DNA of 40,031 nt from a virus, in the IMG/VR virus record IMGVR_UViG_3300048037_000107, positions 1-40,031 of that record; one strand, given 5' to 3'. Position 1 is the first letter of the stretch. Every line of letters starts with the position of its first letter. Below the pieces are notes generated by a model. The model was given only the letters and a program-made list of their open reading frames with translations. It was not told the DNA's origin and did not search any database. The position numbers were made by a program, and so were the translations under genes. Positions 10,788-37,126 of this stretch are shown here, piece after piece.

Positions 10788-10985
10788 ATGGCTAAAAAAA
10801 AGAAGCAGGGTAGCCCCGGCGATGACATGACTGACTATGGTAAAGACTGGCCTAAACCCGGTACAAGACCTAAGCCAGAAGATAGACCAACTGGCATGCC
10901 CGGAACCGAAAACCCTTTCTTAGTTATGAGAAAGAGAGGTAAAGGTAAATTTGTTAATGATCCAACTACCGGACCAAACGCATAA
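10788..10985 (+). CDS. Small basic Pro-rich hypothetical protein
   Basis: 65 residues, beginning MAKKKKQGSPGDD and containing PGTRPKPEDRPTGMPGTENPF. It is hydrophilic, with Pro and Lys rich, probably disordered. The stop overlaps the next ATG by one base (TAATG). No family recognised. It belongs to a run of three very small proteins between scaffold and the promoter at 11235. Confidence 0.6.
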   Translation: MAKKKKQGSPGDDMTDYGKDWPKPGTRPKPEDRPTGMPGTENPFLVMRKRGKGKFVNDPTTGPNA

Positions 10986-11233
10986 TGGCTGTAAAGAAAA
11001 AGAATGTCAGTCTCAAAATGGGAAAGCACAAGTCCCGTTCTGGTGGACTGACAGCAGCCGGTAGAAAGAAGTACAATGCTGCTACCGGCTCTAACCTCAA
11101 AGCACCACAGCCCGGAGGTGGTGCACGTAAGCGTTCTTTCTGTGCTCGCATGAGTGGAGTAAAAGGACCAATGAAAAAACCAAACGGCAAACCTACACGT
11201 AAAGCACTCGCTCTACGTAAGTGGAAATGCTAG
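10985..11233 (+). CDS. Conserved small basic phage protein (probably DUF6321)
   Basis: 82 residues. The core SGGLTAAGRKKYNAATGSN followed by LKAPQPGGGARKRSFCARMSG is a widespread signature of a small phage protein that I believe is DUF6321; its function is unknown. Two cysteines (SFCARM and the C-terminal KWKC) are present. It is rich in Lys and Arg and often sits among head genes, so a minor capsid or DNA-associated role is a guess. The stop lies one base before the candidate phage promoter. Confidence 0.75.
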   Translation: MAVKKKNVSLKMGKHKSRSGGLTAAGRKKYNAATGSNLKAPQPGGGARKRSFCARMSGVKGPMKKPNGKPTRKALALRKWKC

Positions 11234-11260: not shown

Positions 11261-11446
11261 ATGGCAGTAACCTACAATGAAGATGGTAGTAAGAAAGAAA
11301 AGAAAGGTGACAAGATTGCCATGGACATCTTTCCTTCCAAGCTTCCTAAAGATATAGAGAATCAACTCAATGAACCACAGGAACCAAAAGATGGTGCAAA
11401 GATCTTTAAAAGATTAATGAAAAAAATTAAAAAAGGAAAAGTCTGA
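11261..11446 (+). CDS. Small charged hypothetical protein, first gene of the late photosynthesis unit
   Basis: 61 residues: N-terminus MAVTYNEDGSKKEKKGDK, a middle with DIFPSKLPKDIENQLNEP, and a basic C-terminus MKKIKKGKV. Hydrophilic, no membrane segment, no recognised family. It is nine bases downstream of the predicted phage transcription start and overlaps the next gene (TGATG). The transcript leader itself (GAGAG) would have to serve as ribosome site. Confidence 0.6.
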   Translation: MAVTYNEDGSKKEKKGDKIAMDIFPSKLPKDIENQLNEPQEPKDGAKIFKRLMKKIKKGKV

Positions 11447-11625
11447 TGGCTAAGAGAGGATTGTACGCAAACATTCACGCCAAGCGTAAGCGGATTGCCG
11501 CTGGCTCTGGTGAGAAAATGAGAAAGGTGGGTTCTAAGGGCTCTCCCACCGCCGCTAACTTTAAACAGTCAGCGAAAACAGCAAAACCTTACAAGAAAAA
11601 ATCACCCAAAAAGAAAAAGAAATGA
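11446..11625 (+). CDS. Conserved tiny basic protein (MAKRGLYANIHAKRKRI type)
   Basis: 59 residues, beginning MAKRGLYANIHAKRKRIAAG and going on with SGEKMRKVGSKG, then ending in a run of Lys. This N-terminus recurs in many unrelated phages as a small protein of unknown function; about 40% of residues are Lys/Arg. It overlaps the preceding stop by one base and the hli start by four, so the three are translationally linked. Confidence 0.75.
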   Translation: MAKRGLYANIHAKRKRIAAGSGEKMRKVGSKGSPTAANFKQSAKTAKPYKKKSPKKKKK

Positions 11626-11813
11626 CAGATAAACTACTTAACATTTATCCAAATGAGACTCCACCTAGAGTCATTCCAAACTATCCAATTAACAAACATC
11701 CAATTATGACAAACGAAGCAGAAAGATTTAACGGCTGGGCAGCAATGCTTGGTTTCGTAGCAGCAGTAGGTGCTTACGCAACAACAGGACAAATCATCCC
11801 CGGTATATTTTAA
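11622..11813 (+). CDS. hli: High-light-inducible protein (HLIP), chlorophyll-binding
   Basis: 63 residues with one membrane helix. The conserved chlorophyll a/b-binding motif ExxNGxxAMxG is present as E34, N37, G38, A40, M42 and G44, followed by [17 protein letters not shown]. HLIPs associate with photosystem II in the thylakoid membrane and protect it by binding free chlorophyll and carotenoid and dissipating light energy. The phage copy presumably keeps the host photosystem working during infection. It overlaps the preceding gene (ATGA) and the psbA ATG (TAATG). Confidence 0.95.
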
Positions 11814-12895
11814 TGGCAGCTATCTCAGTAACAAGAGGAAGTCAAACTTCCAACTGGGAAAGCTTCTGTGACTGGGTTACAAGCACAAACAACAGACTAT
11901 ATGTAGGTTGGTTTGGTGTCTTGATGATCCCTACATTGCTAACCGCAACAACTTGTTTTATTCTCGCCTTCATCGCAGCACCGCCTGTAGACATAGACGG
12001 CATACGTGAGCCAGTTTCCGGCTCGTTATTATACGGAAACAATATTATATCAGGAGCAGTCGTCCCCTCCTCTAATGCAATCGGACTACATTTTTACCCT
12101 ATATGGGAAGCTGGCACACTGGACGAGTGGCTATATAACGGCGGACCATATCAACTTATTGTCTTTCACTTTCTTATAGGTGTCGCAGCTTATGCTGGTA
12201 GACAGTGGGAACTATCTTATAGACTCGGTATGAGACCGTGGATCTTTGTTGCTTACACAGCACCACTATCCGCAGCACTCGCTGTGTTCTTAGTCTACCC
12301 TTTCGGACAGGGGAGTTTCAGTGATGGTATGCCTCTTGGTATTTCTGGTACTTTTAACTTCATGTTTGTATTCCAAGCAGAACACAATATCCTTATGCAC
12401 CCGTTCCACATGCTCGGTGTTGCTGGGGTATTCGGTGGAGCTCTTGCCGCAGCTATGCACGGAAGTCTCGTTACTTCCTCTATCGTTAAGGAGACAACAG
12501 AAAACGAATCTCAGAATTATGGCTACAAGTTTGGTCAGGATGAAGAGACTTACAACATCGTTGCAGCCCATGGCTACTTCGGTAGATTAATTTTCCAATA
12601 TGCTTCTTTTAATAATTCTCGTAGCTTACACTTTTTTCTCGCTACTTGGCCCGTCGTTGGCATATGGCTTACCTCAATGGGCATCTGCACAATGGCTTTC
12701 AACCTTAATGGTTTTAACTTTAATCAGTCCATTGTCGATACAAACGGCAAAGTCATTCCTACTTGGGCAGACGTTGTAAACAGACAGAACCTTGGTATGG
12801 AAGTGATGCACGAAAGAAATGCACACAACTTTCCACTAGACTTAGCAGCAGCTGAGTCCACAAACGTAGCACTAACTGCACCACAAATAGGATAA
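11813..12895 (+). CDS. psbA: Photosystem II reaction-centre protein D1
   Basis: 360 residues, complete and uninterrupted by an intron. D1 binds P680, pheophytin, the QB quinone and the Mn4CaO5 cluster in the thylakoid membrane. Numbering is one above the usual: TyrZ is Y162, cluster ligands D171, H333, E334, D343 and A345 are in place, as is H199. Position 131 (usual 130) is Gln, the low-light D1:1 type. The C-terminal extension after NFPLDLA would be cut by CtpA. Phage D1 replaces photodamaged host D1 to sustain energy supply. It lies in one transcription unit with hli, two oxygenases and the capsid gene. Confidence 0.98.
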
Positions 12896-12904
12896 CCACC
12901 ACCC

Positions 12905-13420
12905 ATGAAAACAGGAATAGAAAAATTTAAAAATGTTATAGATTCTGAAACTTGTGATTTACTAATTAATCATTTAGAAGATAACATACACAACGTTGTT
13001 ACTACTGAACACAGCGAAGGTCAAAATGTTATTTGTAAAGAAATTAAATTACAACGACAAACAGAGTTAGATAATCTTGTCTTAGAAACTGCCGGAAAAA
13101 TAGCAGCTTTATATGCAGACAAGTACCACCTATTCGGTGCGAATGGTGTATTGCCTTCTCAGCTTAGAAAGATAACAGGTAACACTAAGTATCATGTAGA
13201 TGGTATATCTAAAGATCGTAGAAATGTATCTATCATTATCGGTCTAAATAGTGATTACGAAAAAGGAGAGTTTCATTTTCCATATCAAGATTTTTCTACA
13301 ACTGTAAAACGTGGAGAGGCTATAGTGTTTCCTGTTTATTTTATGTATCCACATTTTGTAGATGCACCTATTGGTAATAGGTATACTATTAATACGTGGC
13401 TCAGGAACTCATACTTATGA
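12905..13420 (+). CDS. 2OG-Fe(II) oxygenase, first of a tandem pair
   Basis: 171 residues with the double-stranded beta-helix fold pattern of 2-oxoglutarate/Fe(II) dioxygenases. The iron triad is H97 and D99 (KYHVDG) with distal H150 (MYPHFVD), and R159 nine residues on is the likely 2OG ligand. GEFHFP and RGEAIVFP are typical of the prolyl-hydroxylase-like group. Substrate unknown; protein, nucleic-acid or small-molecule hydroxylation are all possible. It begins nine bases after psbA and overlaps the second oxygenase (ATGA). It is noticeably more AT-rich at its start than psbA. Confidence 0.85.
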   Translation: MKTGIEKFKNVIDSETCDLLINHLEDNIHNVVTTEHSEGQNVICKEIKLQRQTELDNLVLETAGKIAALYADKYHLFGANGVLPSQLRKITGNTKYHVDGISKDRRNVSIIIGLNSDYEKGEFHFPYQDFSTTVKRGEAIVFPVYFMYPHFVDAPIGNRYTINTWLRNSYL

Positions 13421-13944
13421 ACATCATTGATAATTTTCTTCCTTTAGAAATCTTTAATGAGTTTACTAAGCATGCAATTTCTTCTCCTCATTTTGTAGGA
13501 GTAAGTCATACAGCATATACAACTGAAGCATATAATAATAACTTTGCAGAGCAACAAATGCAAGCAATAATGTTTCAGCGATATATCAATTCATGCGAAG
13601 TATCTGATTGTTACTTACATTTAGAACCTCAGATAAAAAAAATCCATGAGCTATTACAGATAAAAAGACTTTGGTTAATGCGAGTAAATTGCACCTTTGG
13701 TCAAAAAGAACGCTACCAAGGAGCTTGGCATATAGATAATAGTTGGAGTGACTATCTCCAAGAACATGGTAAGACTTGTATCTTATATCTAAATTCTAAT
13801 AACGGAGGAACACAATTTAAAGATGGTCCTTTCGTAAAGTCAGAAGCAAACAGATGTGTTATTGCTCCAACTACAGCAGTACATGCAGGGGTTTGGGCGA
13901 CAGATATTAAATGTCGTTATGTATTAAATATTAATTATGAATAA
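13417..13944 (+). CDS. 2OG-Fe(II) oxygenase-like protein, second of a tandem pair
   Basis: 175 residues from ATG 13417, inside the stop of the first oxygenase. The candidate triad is H105 and D107 (GAWHID) with H156 (TAVHAG), and R167 (CRYVLNINY) as 2OG ligand. The N-terminal NIIDNFLP-LEIFNEF segment is usual for prolyl-4-hydroxylase-like proteins. It is not a simple duplicate of the first: the flanking motifs differ. No SD is visible apart from coupling. Function unknown; the pair may act on related targets or one may modify the product of the other. Confidence 0.8.
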   Translation: MNIIDNFLPLEIFNEFTKHAISSPHFVGVSHTAYTTEAYNNNFAEQQMQAIMFQRYINSCEVSDCYLHLEPQIKKIHELLQIKRLWLMRVNCTFGQKERYQGAWHIDNSWSDYLQEHGKTCILYLNSNNGGTQFKDGPFVKSEANRCVIAPTTAVHAGVWATDIKCRYVLNINYE

Positions 13945-14233
13945 GCCACGTCCGTTCATCCATTTTATGGACGCATGAAACCTAGGCATGGAACGGGGCT
14001 TAGGTATATGGAGATTACAATGCAAGTAACTTACGTATATCGTGGCATTGCTTACACAAAAATTGTGAAGTAATAACAGCACGGGGAGCACCTCAGAGTA
14101 GGACTCCCCTGCAATTGGCAAAAGCCCAGTACGCTGGATACCTTGAGCCGTCTAGACGGTAGGGATAGACCTACAAAAATCTCGAGAAAAAATTTTAGTA
14201 CTAAGCAATATCAATCTTTTTTAATCCATATCA
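13945..14233 (+). other. Structured intergenic region upstream of the capsid gene (candidate ncRNA or leader)
   Basis: 289 bases with only one tiny ORF and at least five predicted hairpins: TCCAT/ATGGA at 13959-13971 with outer TTCA/TGAA; CCTAGGC with GCTTAGG (13981-14004, eight pairs counting a flanking A-T and one G-T); GGGGAG/CTCCCC at 14083-14109 with inner CCT/AGG; CCAG(TACG)CTGG at 14126-14137; and the perfect palindrome CCGTCTAGACGG at 14148-14159. None is followed by a T-run, so they are not intrinsic terminators. The last ~50 bases before the capsid ATG are A/T-rich and lack a ribosome site. I saw no T7-like promoter match or tRNA. Confidence 0.6.
14020..14073 (+). CDS. 17-residue ORF with YRG-Y motif (DUF4278-like fragment)
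   Basis: The ORF encodes MQVTYVYRGIAYTKIVK. GGAG at 14010-14013 sits six bases before ATG 14020, a proper ribosome site, whereas an in-frame ATG at 14008 has none. The LTYRGxxY-type motif resembles the short cyanobacterial DUF4278 proteins, here reduced to the motif. It lies between two predicted hairpins in the long leader of the capsid gene and could be a real micropeptide, a leader peptide or a remnant. Confidence 0.4.
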   Translation: MQVTYVYRGIAYTKIVK

Positions 14234-15403
14234 ATGGCACAACAATCAACTAACGACCCAGCAAGTCTTACACGGACGGGTCAATCTAATGCAACTGGTA
14301 ACGCCAGAGCATTATATTTAAAGTTGTTCAGTGGAGAGATGTTCAAAGGCTTCCAGCGTAACACAATCGCTAGAGACCTTGTAATGAAGAGAACACTTAC
14401 TAACGGTAAGAGTCTTCAGTTCATCTACACTGGACGCACAAAAGCCGAGTATCATACACCCGGTAACAGCATACTAGGTAACTCCGATGGAGCACCTCCA
14501 GTAGCTGAAAAGACAATTACATGCGATGATTTATTAATCAGTTCAGCATTTGTCTATGAGCTAGATGAAACATTAGCACACTACGATCTACGTGGTGAGA
14601 TCTCTAAGAAGATCGGCTATGCTCTAGCTGAGAAGTACGACAGACTCATCTTCCGTCAAATTGCGAAGGGAGCTAGAGTTGCTTCTCCAATCACTAAGTC
14701 AGGCTTCGTTGAGCCCGGTGGAACACAGATCAGAGTAGGTACAAACGCTCAGGCGTCTGATGCTTACGTACCAGCTTCCCTAATAAACGCTTTCTATGAT
14801 GCAGCTGCTGCACTAGATGAGAAAGGAGTTTCTAATGAAGGTAGAGTAGCTGTGTTGAACCCAAGACAGTACTACGAACTAATACAAAACGTTGGTTCTA
14901 GTGGTCTTATCAACAGAGACGAGTCTGGTGATGCACTACAGTCTGGAAACGGCATTATTGAAATTGCAGGCATTAAGATCTTCAAGTCAATGAACATTCC
15001 ATTCTTCGGAAACTACGGTACTAAGTACGGTTCTGCATCTGCAACTAACCCCGGTGTAACATCACCCGGAAACGTTGGTTCATTTATCGGTGAAGGAGCA
15101 GAAGACGGTAGAGCTTCTGTAACAGGTATTAACAATAACTATGGTAATACATCTGACTTTGCTAACAGCTGTGGCTTAATCTTCCAAAAGGAAGGTGCTG
15201 GAGTTGTAGAAGCTATTGGACCACAGGTTCAAGTAACTTCTGGAGACGTTTCAGTTGTATACCAAGGTGATGTAATCCTTGGACGTTTAGCAATGGGAGC
15301 AGATTTCTTAAACCCTGCTTGCTGTGTTGAACTAATTGCTGGTGCTGCTGTAGGTTCTACAGGTAACGCTGCATTTGGTGCTACATACCCAGAGAACGCT
15401 TAA
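14234..15403 (+). CDS. Major capsid protein, T7 gp10 family
   Basis: 389 residues, HK97 fold. Diagnostic are the N-terminus with LKLFSGEMFKGFQRNTIAR, the segment YTGRTKAEYHTPG, and EKYDRLIFRQIAKGAR. It forms the icosahedral shell. The gene ends just before a strong intrinsic terminator, as gp10 does in T7. Glycine- and Asn-rich insertion around residues 255-305 may be an exposed loop. No ribosome site is obvious upstream, odd for the most abundant virion protein; translation may depend on the structured leader. I saw no T7-style frameshift to a longer 10B form. Confidence 0.95.
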   Translation: MAQQSTNDPASLTRTGQSNATGNARALYLKLFSGEMFKGFQRNTIARDLVMKRTLTNGKSLQFIYTGRTKAEYHTPGNSILGNSDGAPPVAEKTITCDDLLISSAFVYELDETLAHYDLRGEISKKIGYALAEKYDRLIFRQIAKGARVASPITKSGFVEPGGTQIRVGTNAQASDAYVPASLINAFYDAAAALDEKGVSNEGRVAVLNPRQYYELIQNVGSSGLINRDESGDALQSGNGIIEIAGIKIFKSMNIPFFGNYGTKYGSASATNPGVTSPGNVGSFIGEGAEDGRASVTGINNNYGNTSDFANSCGLIFQKEGAGVVEAIGPQVQVTSGDVSVVYQGDVILGRLAMGADFLNPACCVELIAGAAVGSTGNAAFGATYPENA

Positions 15404-33774: not shown

Positions 33775-33885
33775 ATGAGTACATTATCAAGAATACTAGC
33801 AGAACGTGAAGAAGCTGCTAAAAAAGCTGCAACAAAGAAAAAGAAAGCAGCTGCCAAGAAAACCACTACAACCACCGAATCATGA
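33775..33885 (+). CDS. 36-residue charged protein
   Basis: MSTLSRILAEREEAAKKAATKK and then Lys/Ala and Thr residues; an amphipathic charged helix followed by a basic tail. It starts right after the previous stop and overlaps the next ATG by four bases (ATGA). Too short for homology; the tight packing supports it as real. Confidence 0.6.
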   Translation: MSTLSRILAEREEAAKKAATKKKKAAAKKTTTTTES

Positions 33886-34037
33886 TTACATTAGTAAAAC
33901 CAATTTTATTTGCCTTTATTAAAACTACAGCAGTTAAAGAACTGATAGTCAAGCTATTAGAGGCATATGCAAAATCTACAGATAATACTGTTGATGACAA
34001 GCTAGTTGAGCTAGTTAAAAAAAACCTATTAGGATAA
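33882..34037 (+). CDS. 51-residue conserved cyanophage protein
   Basis: MITLVKPILFAFIKTTAVKELIVKLLEAYAKSTDNTVDDK in two parts, then LVELVKKNLLG. A hydrophobic, partly amphipathic helix at the N-terminus and an acidic-basic C-terminus. I have seen this KPxLFAxIKTxAVKELIVKLLE pattern in other marine phages; no function is known. Overlaps the previous gene (ATGA) and ends four bases before the next ATG. Confidence 0.65.
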   Translation: MITLVKPILFAFIKTTAVKELIVKLLEAYAKSTDNTVDDKLVELVKKNLLG

Positions 34038-34041
34038 TAAC

Positions 34042-34251
34042 ATGGCAAAATCCGGTGCATCTAAAGGTGCTAAAAAAATTGACGCATTTAACGATGGAAA
34101 GCTAGAGGGTGTAAATGTTGCATCCATGCCTGACCATGTGTTTGAGTCTATACAAAGACAGTATGGGAACAAAAAGTATGGTGATTACACTATTGAAGAC
34201 AAAAAGAACGTGATTAACTATTACAAAAAACAAAAGAAAGGCAAAGTATAA
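34042..34251 (+). CDS. Small hypothetical protein before small terminase
   Basis: 69 residues, basic (KSGASKGAKKIDAFNDGKLEG, DKKNVINYYKKQKKGKV). SMPDHVFESIQRQYGNKKYGDY is its most distinctive stretch. No known family. The stop overlaps the small terminase ATG by one base. Confidence 0.6.
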   Translation: MAKSGASKGAKKIDAFNDGKLEGVNVASMPDHVFESIQRQYGNKKYGDYTIEDKKNVINYYKKQKKGKV

Positions 34252-34743: not shown

Positions 34744-35066
34744 CCCCATTACTACCTAACCCTGACCATTATTTACACAATTTAATAACCATGACAAGTT
34801 CAGATTCTAAACGGCTCTGGAGAAGAGCCATTAAAGAGCACTTCAATTGTACATGTGTTTATTGCGGAGAAACTTATGATTTACAAAAACTCACCATTGA
34901 CCACGTACGTCCAAAATGTAGGGGCGGAGAAGATGTGGCAACAAATGTTGTACCGTCGTGTAGAAGATGCAATCAGGAAAAAGGTAGTAAAAACTGGAGG
35001 GACTGGATGAGGTCGACATTTGGCATTACTGATAGAGAACAAACTATTTTATCACACATTAGATGA
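34740..35066 (+). CDS. HNH endonuclease
   Basis: 108 residues. The zinc ribbon pairs CVYC and CRRC, the catalytic LTIDHVRPKCRGGEDVATN and NVVPSCRRCNQEKG show H-N-H in standard order. HNH nucleases beside terminases can aid packaging cleavage (as in HK97-like systems) or be homing enzymes. The small size and operon position between terminase subunits favour a packaging role, but that is inferred. Overlaps both neighbours (ATGA). Confidence 0.9.
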   Translation: MTPLLPNPDHYLHNLITMTSSDSKRLWRRAIKEHFNCTCVYCGETYDLQKLTIDHVRPKCRGGEDVATNVVPSCRRCNQEKGSKNWRDWMRSTFGITDREQTILSHIR

Positions 35067-37126
35067 ATGAAGAAGACGAACTAGATCCGATTGAAAAGGA
35101 ACTAAAAGAAGCACAAGAACAGTACGACGCTGAAAACCAACAGGTCTACGATGAAGTTACTAAAGGTAATGAAGAGATACGTAGAAAACGTACTGAAGAT
35201 GATGATGATGAACAGCTAGAACTACCACTTGAGTCACGTAATTTGGCTCGAGTAGGTACTGGTTTAGCTTTTGAAGTAGGAGCTAACAGTTTACTAGATG
35301 CACTAACATTTGTACCGGCAACTCAAGCTGTCGGATCTGCTGTTATTAACACAATAGCACAAGGTATACGTGGCGGTAAGTTTAGTTTTGGTGAAGTACT
35401 AGGATCAGCTGCGGCTAGTCAAATACCCGGTTTAGCACAAGGTAAAGCTATAACTAAAGCTGGTAGACTAACTAGGGCTGCTGGTACAGGTGCTGTATCT
35501 GGTGCAATAGAAACTACCAGTATAACTGCTGTAGATGAAGGCAGATTGCCTACAGCTCAAGAGTTTGGTCTAGGAGTTGGAGCTGGTGGTGTACTTGGAG
35601 CTGGATTTGCACAAGCTGCTGATCTTGCAGACCCAAGAATTACTGGTCTATTTAGAGATTTACGAGCTAGAATAAATGGTAGTCAAACGCCTTTTCTTCA
35701 AGGCAGTGTAGGAGCCGGATATATTGGTCCAGTATCGAAAGGTTACTTTGAACCCGGAGCTGATGCTGTTGTACCATTACCAAAAGGAGCACCATTTGAT
35801 GCTGATACAGTTAACGACTACGTACAAAGAGCTTACATTCATAGAGCCGAAAGAGTAAAGGAAGGCGGTAAAACAAACTTGATGAAAGGTTTTGACGAAA
35901 TATTACTAAATAAGTCTAATCAAGAATTTATTTTAGTTAAAAAACGTGTACTTAAAAACAAACAAGTGCCTGCTGCTTTTGAAAACTATGACTTAAAAAG
36001 TGTCTTTAATGTTGAAGAGGCGATTGTAGAAAAATTAGGTTATGAAATGAAGCAAGACCCAGACGTTAAATTTTTACAATTAATTAGAAAAGAACTAAAC
36101 AACATTAAACAGCAAGATCCTAAATTATTTTTAACAAACCTTATGGAATATGGAGATGCAGCTTACTTAGAACATAAAGTCGCTAGACGTATGGCTGGTA
36201 AGTTTTGGAAAAGAGTTGAAAAACGTAATCCAGAAGATATAAAAAATGGTTTATTTCAATGGACTGGTGCTACTAACCGTAATACCTTAAAGAATTTACG
36301 TTTGTTATTTGACCCTAATTACAAAACATTAAAAGATACTACTGAACTTAGATTAAATAATTTAGTTAAAACTAAGAAATTACCAGATAATGGAGAACCA
36401 GAAGGTTTTGTCATAACTATTGAAGATCCAAATGAAGCTGCTTTTAGTGCTAAGAGTTTATTTGTACGAAGTAACCCCGGTAATTTACAAGTTAGAAAAG
36501 CTGGAGATGGTCGAGTAGTTGGTATTATACCTGACTTCTATCGTCAAATATATAGCACACAATTTAAAACTGCATATAACAAAAACTTTGGAGCACTTGC
36601 TAGCCCTAATGTTGATATAAAAATTAGAGCACGAGCTGGTGAAACTATAGATCAGTATAGAGAACGGATTATCAATAATATGCTTGATGATGCAGTATCA
36701 GGTAGAGGTGTGCTGTCTGAAGAAGATTATCTCAACGATTTAGGTATGTTTTATAATACCTTTGAAACATTCCAAAAAAATACTAATACAACTTGGGTAC
36801 GTAAACCTAGCTGGGTAGAAGAAATACAAACCGGAAAAAATAATTTCGCTGATCCAGCGGAGGCTGATATACAGGAATTTAATATTAGAGATCTTGATGG
36901 TAATATTATAGAATTAGATGTTGATACTGAAAATGCACTTAGAAACTTGAAAGAACTTGAAGATTTACTAAGAAACCTACCTAGAGAAACTACAGGTAGA
37001 TTTAAAGGCAGTGTATTAACAAGTAAACGTAAAATTGCTCGTGATCTACGTAAAGATATAGATGCTATAAGACAAAAATATAACTTAGGCAAGTACAAAT
37101 TTAACCAAAACGAACTTGATATATAA
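35063..37126 (+). CDS. Large unrecognised protein between small and large terminase
   Basis: 687 residues. It has an acidic coiled-coil-like start (1-50, EKELKEAQEQYDAENQQ and EEIRRKRTEDDDDEQ), a Gly/Ala-rich partly hydrophobic region at about 60-190 (VGSAVINTIAQGIRGGKFSFG; AAGTGAVSGAIETTS; GVGAGGVLGAGFAQAA), and a long hydrophilic remainder with no motif I know. Composition of the middle recalls the membrane-seeking segments of gp16. It could be an ejected virion protein or a toxin-like or defence-related factor. Overlaps the HNH and TerL genes by 4 and 1 bases, so it shares their operon. Confidence 0.75.
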   Translation: MNEEDELDPIEKELKEAQEQYDAENQQVYDEVTKGNEEIRRKRTEDDDDEQLELPLESRNLARVGTGLAFEVGANSLLDALTFVPATQAVGSAVINTIAQGIRGGKFSFGEVLGSAAASQIPGLAQGKAITKAGRLTRAAGTGAVSGAIETTSITAVDEGRLPTAQEFGLGVGAGGVLGAGFAQAADLADPRITGLFRDLRARINGSQTPFLQGSVGAGYIGPVSKGYFEPGADAVVPLPKGAPFDADTVNDYVQRAYIHRAERVKEGGKTNLMKGFDEILLNKSNQEFILVKKRVLKNKQVPAAFENYDLKSVFNVEEAIVEKLGYEMKQDPDVKFLQLIRKELNNIKQQDPKLFLTNLMEYGDAAYLEHKVARRMAGKFWKRVEKRNPEDIKNGLFQWTGATNRNTLKNLRLLFDPNYKTLKDTTELRLNNLVKTKKLPDNGEPEGFVITIEDPNEAAFSAKSLFVRSNPGNLQVRKAGDGRVVGIIPDFYRQIYSTQFKTAYNKNFGALASPNVDIKIRARAGETIDQYRERIINNMLDDAVSGRGVLSEEDYLNDLGMFYNTFETFQKNTNTTWVRKPSWVEEIQTGKNNFADPAEADIQEFNIRDLDGNIIELDVDTENALRNLKELEDLLRNLPRETTGRFKGSVLTSKRKIARDLRKDIDAIRQKYNLGKYKFNQNELDI

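Follow-up and report, generated by a model that had tools for sequence, protein, structure and literature searches.

2-Oxoglutarate (2OG) oxygenases couple the decarboxylation of 2OG to hydroxylation. Proteins of the 2OG-Fe(II) type are carried by 14 of 16 cyanomyoviruses, and roles in nitrogen signaling and DNA repair have been proposed for them (PMC3037559). Ten 2OG-Fe(II) oxygenases are encoded by S-CREM1 (PMC9964418), 24 by S-SCSM1 (PMC9602691), and several by pelagiphage podoviruses, where the genes often adjoin ferrochelatase (PMC9599517). In the Phold study, marine-phage members of PHROG 61 were found to be similar to human EGLN3 (PMC12774648). A genome comparison of cyanopodoviruses makes no mention of 2OG oxygenases (PMC4646655), and our literature search on cyanophage prolyl hydroxylases found none. 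In Synechococcus phage S-T4 four neighbouring genes match PF13640, one of them below the cut-off, and therefore clusters of 2OG oxygenases are already known. One gene within this cluster is annotated as ferrochelatase (L044:3686-4543) and has a C-terminal PF13640 domain; when its frame is extended upstream a second HxD-bearing stretch is found.

In this report, two adjacent oxygenase genes of a T7-like cyanophage, OXY1 and OXY2, are compared with these systems. A first-pass annotation had called the setting beside psbA unfamiliar, but it is less unusual than that, because multiple 2OG-Fe(II) oxygenases in one cyanophage are well known from published genomes. The kind of enzyme is already known in cyanophages; our literature search found no description of the pair itself or of such genes placed behind psbA in T7-like cyanophages. 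Podoviruses of ~40 kb provide a tractable setting for such genes: the gene number is small, the insertion sites are defined, and each gene can be compared between close relatives that have it and others that lack it.

The oxygenase genes and their predicted products

The window (the whole stretch of DNA that was analysed, 40,031 bases) is a T7-like cyanopodovirus genome that is possibly incomplete. It contains genes for RNA polymerase, SSB, endonuclease, primase/helicase, DNA polymerase, exonuclease, and ribonucleotide reductase, as well as portal, scaffold, hli, psbA, capsid, tail fibre, and terminase genes. The features from psbA to the capsid gene that are described next are all on the + strand. 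The psbA gene (11813..12895) encodes the photosystem II protein D1, which is ~93% identical in related loci, and is followed by OXY1 (12905..13420, 171 aa) and OXY2 (13417..13944, 175 aa). The ATG of OXY2 at 13417 and the TGA of OXY1 at 13418-13420 form an ATGA overlap (13417..13420). The two ORFs, their coordinates, and the overlap are as the first-pass annotation had given them. Downstream are a glutamine-II riboswitch aptamer (RF01704, 13950..14004), a 17-aa ORF (MQVTYVYRGIAYTKIVK, 14020..14073), and the major capsid protein gene (14234..15403). The GC content of OXY1 and OXY2 is 32-33% versus 44% for the psbA and capsid genes. Elsewhere in the window, two small basic proteins (DUF6321, 10985-11233, and phrog_16028, 11446-11625) are encoded upstream of hli; among relatives these genes shift between the psbA region and the tail-terminase region and sometimes adjoin OXY1 or OXY2. 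A 687-aa ORF (35063-37126) between an HNH-like gene and the large terminase has no PHROG or Pfam match.

OXY1 is above the PF13640 cut-off (31 vs 27 bits) and matches phrog_61 over nearly its full length (E=5.5e-17). OXY2 matches phrog_274 over residues 1-174 (E=2.4e-24). A search of NCBIfam gave no match. The annotation had assigned an HxD...H triad and a distal Arg to each protein (H97, D99, H150, and R159 in OXY1; H105, D107, H156, and R167 in OXY2). These residues are where it placed them, and all eight are invariant in 13 OXY1 and 15 OXY2 homologues, which reach down to 52% and 28% identity, respectively, with the window proteins. The iron triad and distal basic residue by which the 2OG-Fe(II) oxygenase superfamily is recognized are conserved in both proteins. 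The HxD..H..R string by itself is weak evidence because a loose version of the pattern also occurs in the DNA polymerase and terminase ORFs of the window, which are unrelated. Pairwise dN/dS values of 0.08-0.54 are as expected for coding genes under purifying selection.

AlphaFold models were built on the homologue alignments and compared with solved structures using Foldseek and VIA-align. The mean pLDDT is 79.2 for OXY1, with values of 60-66 around the active-site loop (residues 91-110), and 86.0 for OXY2. Structure prediction had been proposed as a check on the assignment, and both models have the double-stranded beta-helix (jelly-roll) core of solved 2OG oxygenases, to which they align with VIA Z scores of 13-16. 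By family match, conserved residues, and predicted fold, OXY1 and OXY2 are genuine, divergent 2OG-Fe(II) oxygenases. No similarity between them is detected by blastp, and hhalign of the OXY1 profile against the OXY2 profile gives a probability of 0.1%. A recent duplication, which the annotation had also discounted, is rejected on these results, and on sequence comparison the two proteins are members of two different branches of the superfamily.

The models differ in their closest relatives. The top Foldseek match of OXY1 is PBCV-1 vCPH (E=7.8e-10), followed by Pseudomonas P4H and PHD enzymes, and all of the best 50 VIA-align rows are prolyl hydroxylases, including P. putida P4H (Z 16.6, 2.9 A over 163 residues) and PHD2 (Z 16.2). 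The length of this list is not independent evidence, since PHD2 has many entries. A profile search of PDB sequences with OXY1 also returned prolyl hydroxylases (E=0.0017), and only for OXY1 are the PHD/P4H enzymes the closest relatives in both fold and sequence. The best VIA row for OXY2 is a Burkholderia 2OG oxygenase (Z 15.5, 2.5 A over 156 residues); PHD enzymes including PHD2 come next (Z ~14), tied with SnoN, OkaE, and ALKBH1 (Z 13.6).

Candidate substrates

We consider it moderately probable that OXY1 and OXY2 are two independent phage-borne accessory genes for 2OG/Fe(II) hydroxylases that recombination has joined in the variable stretch from psbA to the riboswitch/capsid leader, with OXY1 most likely and OXY2 probably acting on protein. 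Recombination would have brought the two genes together between psbA and the glutamine-II riboswitch. In each product Fe(II) would be held by the HxD...H residues and 2-oxoglutarate by the distal Arg, and O2 would be used to hydroxylate the substrate with release of succinate and CO2. OXY1 would hydroxylate a protein side chain in the manner of the PHD/P4H enzymes, and this is its most likely activity given that its nearest folds are protein prolyl hydroxylases and that the second Arg of AlkB is replaced by W165. OXY2, too, probably hydroxylates protein, although with less certainty as to substrate class, since the SnoN, OkaE, and ALKBH1 rows tie with PHD. The location in the psbA-capsid module suggests that the genes are expressed with their neighbours. 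We infer catalysis, a protein substrate, and co-expression with psbA and the capsid genes. Against this explanation, the pLDDT of the OXY1 model is 60-66 at the active-site loop, a shared fold alone does not reveal function, and the pair recurs in two orders, leaving room for some cooperation between the enzymes.

Cyanophages have been proposed to adjust 2OG levels along with NtcA activity (PMC3037559). A small-molecule or metabolic role of this kind, in which the enzymes would turn over a metabolite or lower 2-oxoglutarate and so shift the host nitrogen signal, as Sullivan et al. 2010 proposed for cyanomyoviruses, is unlikely here. The predicted fold of OXY2 is shared with small-molecule 2OG enzymes and the neighbouring riboswitch family senses glutamine, both of which fit such a role, but the closest folds of OXY1 are protein hydroxylases, and the riboswitch occurs without the oxygenases and is located downstream of them. 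Additionally, bulk removal of 2OG by an enzyme that couples its turnover to a substrate would be inefficient.

A role on nucleic acid, in which DNA or RNA of the phage or its host would be repaired in the manner of AlkB or modified in that of TET/JBP, is distinctly unlikely. The AlkB family has a second Arg six residues after the 2OG-binding Arg (R-x5-R). In OXY1, R159 is followed by W165 at that position, and in OXY2, R167 is followed by N173. AlkB is absent from the best 50 VIA rows for OXY1, and ALKBH1, one of the points in favor of this role, appears only as a tied row for OXY2. Neither protein (P0001/P0002) has a Pfam match to a nucleic-acid 2OG family; Tet_JBP (PF12851) gives no match to them at E up to 1 and has a weak match (E=0.015, below the cut-off) only in the S-T4 fusion protein. 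DNA repair has been proposed for cyanophage 2OG-Fe(II) proteins (PMC3037559), and relatives of OXY2 are labelled 'DNA endonuclease V', but that label has no sequence backing. The first-pass annotation had listed D1 or ribosomal protein prolines, DNA or RNA bases, and a small metabolite as possible targets; of these options a prolyl-hydroxylase-type protein hydroxylase fits OXY1 best, and an AlkB-type enzyme is disfavored by the missing second Arg.

T4 DenV is a pyrimidine dimer glycosylase and an all-helical protein. The OXY2 model is a beta-rich jelly-roll, and neither OXY2 nor the labelled phrog_274 relatives have a glycosylase Pfam match, and the 'DNA endonuclease V' identity is rejected on both counts. 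The phrog_274 proteins carrying this name or denV (e.g., L044:1659-2222, L045:3995-4576, and L046:3998-4495) have conserved HxD..H..R columns, and two of the labelled relatives match PF13640 weakly, so the label looks wrong for this large cyanophage family and is flagged here as misleading. The 'ferrochelatase' and 'DNA endonuclease' labels of phrog_3531 and phrog_2297, which OXY1 also matched, are considered label noise or fusions, the S-T4 'ferrochelatase' having PF13640.

Slots and neighbours among related phages

Scans of IMG/VR identified 18 close relatives of OXY1 and 21 of OXY2, and the use of alignments extended these to 44 and 48 loci. In viral metagenomes the main slot of OXY1 is between psbA and the capsid gene, where it is usually alone (L005, L011, and L014, for example), and in the trees 25 of the 32 distinct OXY1 sequences are located there. 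The main slot of OXY2 follows the tail fibres and is bordered by a small conserved ORF (33882-34037 in the window) and the small terminase ORF (34251); the corresponding region of the window (34035..34250, + strand) has no OXY2. This slot or its vicinity holds 27 of the 40 distinct OXY2 sequences, and the copies found after psbA (window, L022/L023, L006, and L028, the last with OXY2 alone) nest inside the tail-side clade. Tail-slot OXY2 proteins begin with MKVLTTQ..., and the window protein starts directly at MNIIDNF; the missing residues suggest that the original OXY2 start was lost when the junction with OXY1 formed. In L016 the gene for a further PF13640 oxygenase (457-1011) is flanked by the scaffold gene and the small basic genes, and therefore some phages have an additional 2OG oxygenase in the psbA-capsid module.

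The window pair is placed exactly between the psbA stop and the riboswitch. Two relatives with nearly the same capsid protein (L127, 99% identical; L129, 97%) have psbA, ~10 nt, and then the glutamine-II riboswitch with no oxygenase, and their short ORF encodes nearly the same 17 aa as that of the window. The first-pass annotation had also called for a survey of psbA neighbourhoods. The psbA-capsid slot can be seen in full in 45 of the nearest capsid loci; 44 of these have no OXY1 or OXY2 match, and the remaining one has a distant OXY2-like gene. In two further loci, in which psbA is cut off, OXY1 is present. The empty slots and the empty sites of near relatives indicate that OXY1 and OXY2 are sporadic accessories. 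The comparison also defines a slot for recombination, bounded on one side by psbA and on the other by the glutamine riboswitch that precedes the capsid gene. Joining of independent genes by recombination, our preferred explanation, is backed by the variable combinations and places of the genes, the nesting of OXY2, the empty sites, and the lower GC content.

The annotation's suggestion of one two-enzyme modification system beside psbA fares less well, as the genes are separable, occur in either order, and are mostly in two different slots; it is rejected as the leading reading. Such a system, in which OXY1 and OXY2 are made together from overlapping genes and act on one substrate sequentially or as a complex, is very unlikely. 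It would account for the ATGA overlap, which is common to the window and L023 and suggests translational coupling where it exists, and for the recurrence of the pair: in the order OXY1 then OXY2 in the window, L023, and L006, side by side with OXY2 first in the tail region of L007 and L113, and on one contig (G006) with OXY1 after psbA and OXY2 in the tail region. However, the genes are separate in most loci, and several contigs of 40-47 kb, which may be incomplete, have one without the other (OXY1 in G001 and G008; OXY2 in G002 and G004). The usual slots differ, the psbA-side OXY2 copies are nested among tail-side ones, and in L006 the genes do not overlap and have a 330-nt spacer. The ATGA junction is derived, and L023 is the one other contig that has it. 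There, a deletion between OXY2 and the capsid leader appears to have removed the riboswitch along with most of the 17-aa ORF (L023:690-870).

The riboswitch of the window scores 49.8 bits. In Rfam searches a glutamine-II riboswitch precedes the capsid gene in three isolates (P-SSP2, P-GSP1, and NATL2A-133) and in a further 18 loci from the environment. It is present in 13 of 14 longer records, and a home-made profile detected it in 45 of the 59 capsid leaders that could be read. The short ORF 3' of the riboswitch keeps YRGxxYT(K/R) in nearly all cases inspected. Judged by sequence, a glutamine-II riboswitch and a conserved 17-aa ORF precede the capsid gene in most of these podoviruses. The riboswitch is not considered part of an oxygenase cassette, since the three isolates have it without these oxygenases; it is the downstream border of the slot. 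Cyanobacteria are known to have downstream-peptide (glutamine-II) RNAs whose ORFs span 17-100 aa (PMC2864571), and it is thought that glutamine binding releases the ribosome-binding site (PMC6698751). Our literature search found no report of this riboswitch before the capsid gene of T7-like cyanophages, and the capsid leader may merit more attention than the oxygenase pair.

A more specific proposal, which we regard as a long shot, has OXY1 acting as a prolyl hydroxylase, alone or together with OXY2, on one particular protein in the course of infection; candidates are EF-Tu, ribosomal proteins, D1, and capsid or tail proteins. The module would then read nitrogen status twice, through the 2-oxoglutarate co-substrate and through the adjacent glutamine-II riboswitch. 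A collagen-like substrate is set aside, as a simple scan of window ORFs of at least 50 aa found no run of at least five G-X-X triplets. A host origin of the genes is rejected: genome-contig scans, which reach only relatives sharing the chosen motifs, gave no OXY1 relative and a single OXY2 relative (L206, 42% over residues 76-174) in the Pelagibacteraceae single-cell assembly AG-365-D19, which may be phage DNA in the cell.

Comparison with described oxygenases

The proteins of isolated phages provide the nearest described relatives. A tblastn search of OXY1 and OXY2 against 50,697 phage records returned, among the best 60 records listed for each, mostly T4-like Synechococcus and Prochlorococcus phages at ~25-34% identity, and no psbA-bearing T7-like isolate was among these matches. 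OXY1 is in the same family as the phrog_61/PF13640 oxygenases of cyanomyoviruses (S-T4, S-H9-1, ACG-2014f, and others), with 25-31% identity to proteins of T4-like cyanophages and <35% to proteins of isolates. Unlike them, it is a single-domain protein encoded in a T7-like podovirus between psbA and the capsid gene. The phrog_274 relatives of OXY2 in cyanomyoviruses are 25-37% identical and keep the HxD, H, and R columns, whereas the podovirus members are usually encoded between the tail fibres and the terminase.

Among solved structures, Pseudomonas putida PPHD (PDB 4j25; 4iw3 with EF-Tu) and human PHD2/EGLN1 are the top VIA rows for OXY1 (Z 16.6 and 16.2). They superimpose on the model with rmsd values of 2.9-3.1 A over 163-171 residues and share the HxD...H...R set, with 13-18% identity. 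Their substrates are EF-Tu or HIF. The PBCV-1 viral collagen prolyl hydroxylase vCPH (PDB 5c5t), the best Foldseek match of OXY1, is 18% identical to it and is likewise of viral origin.
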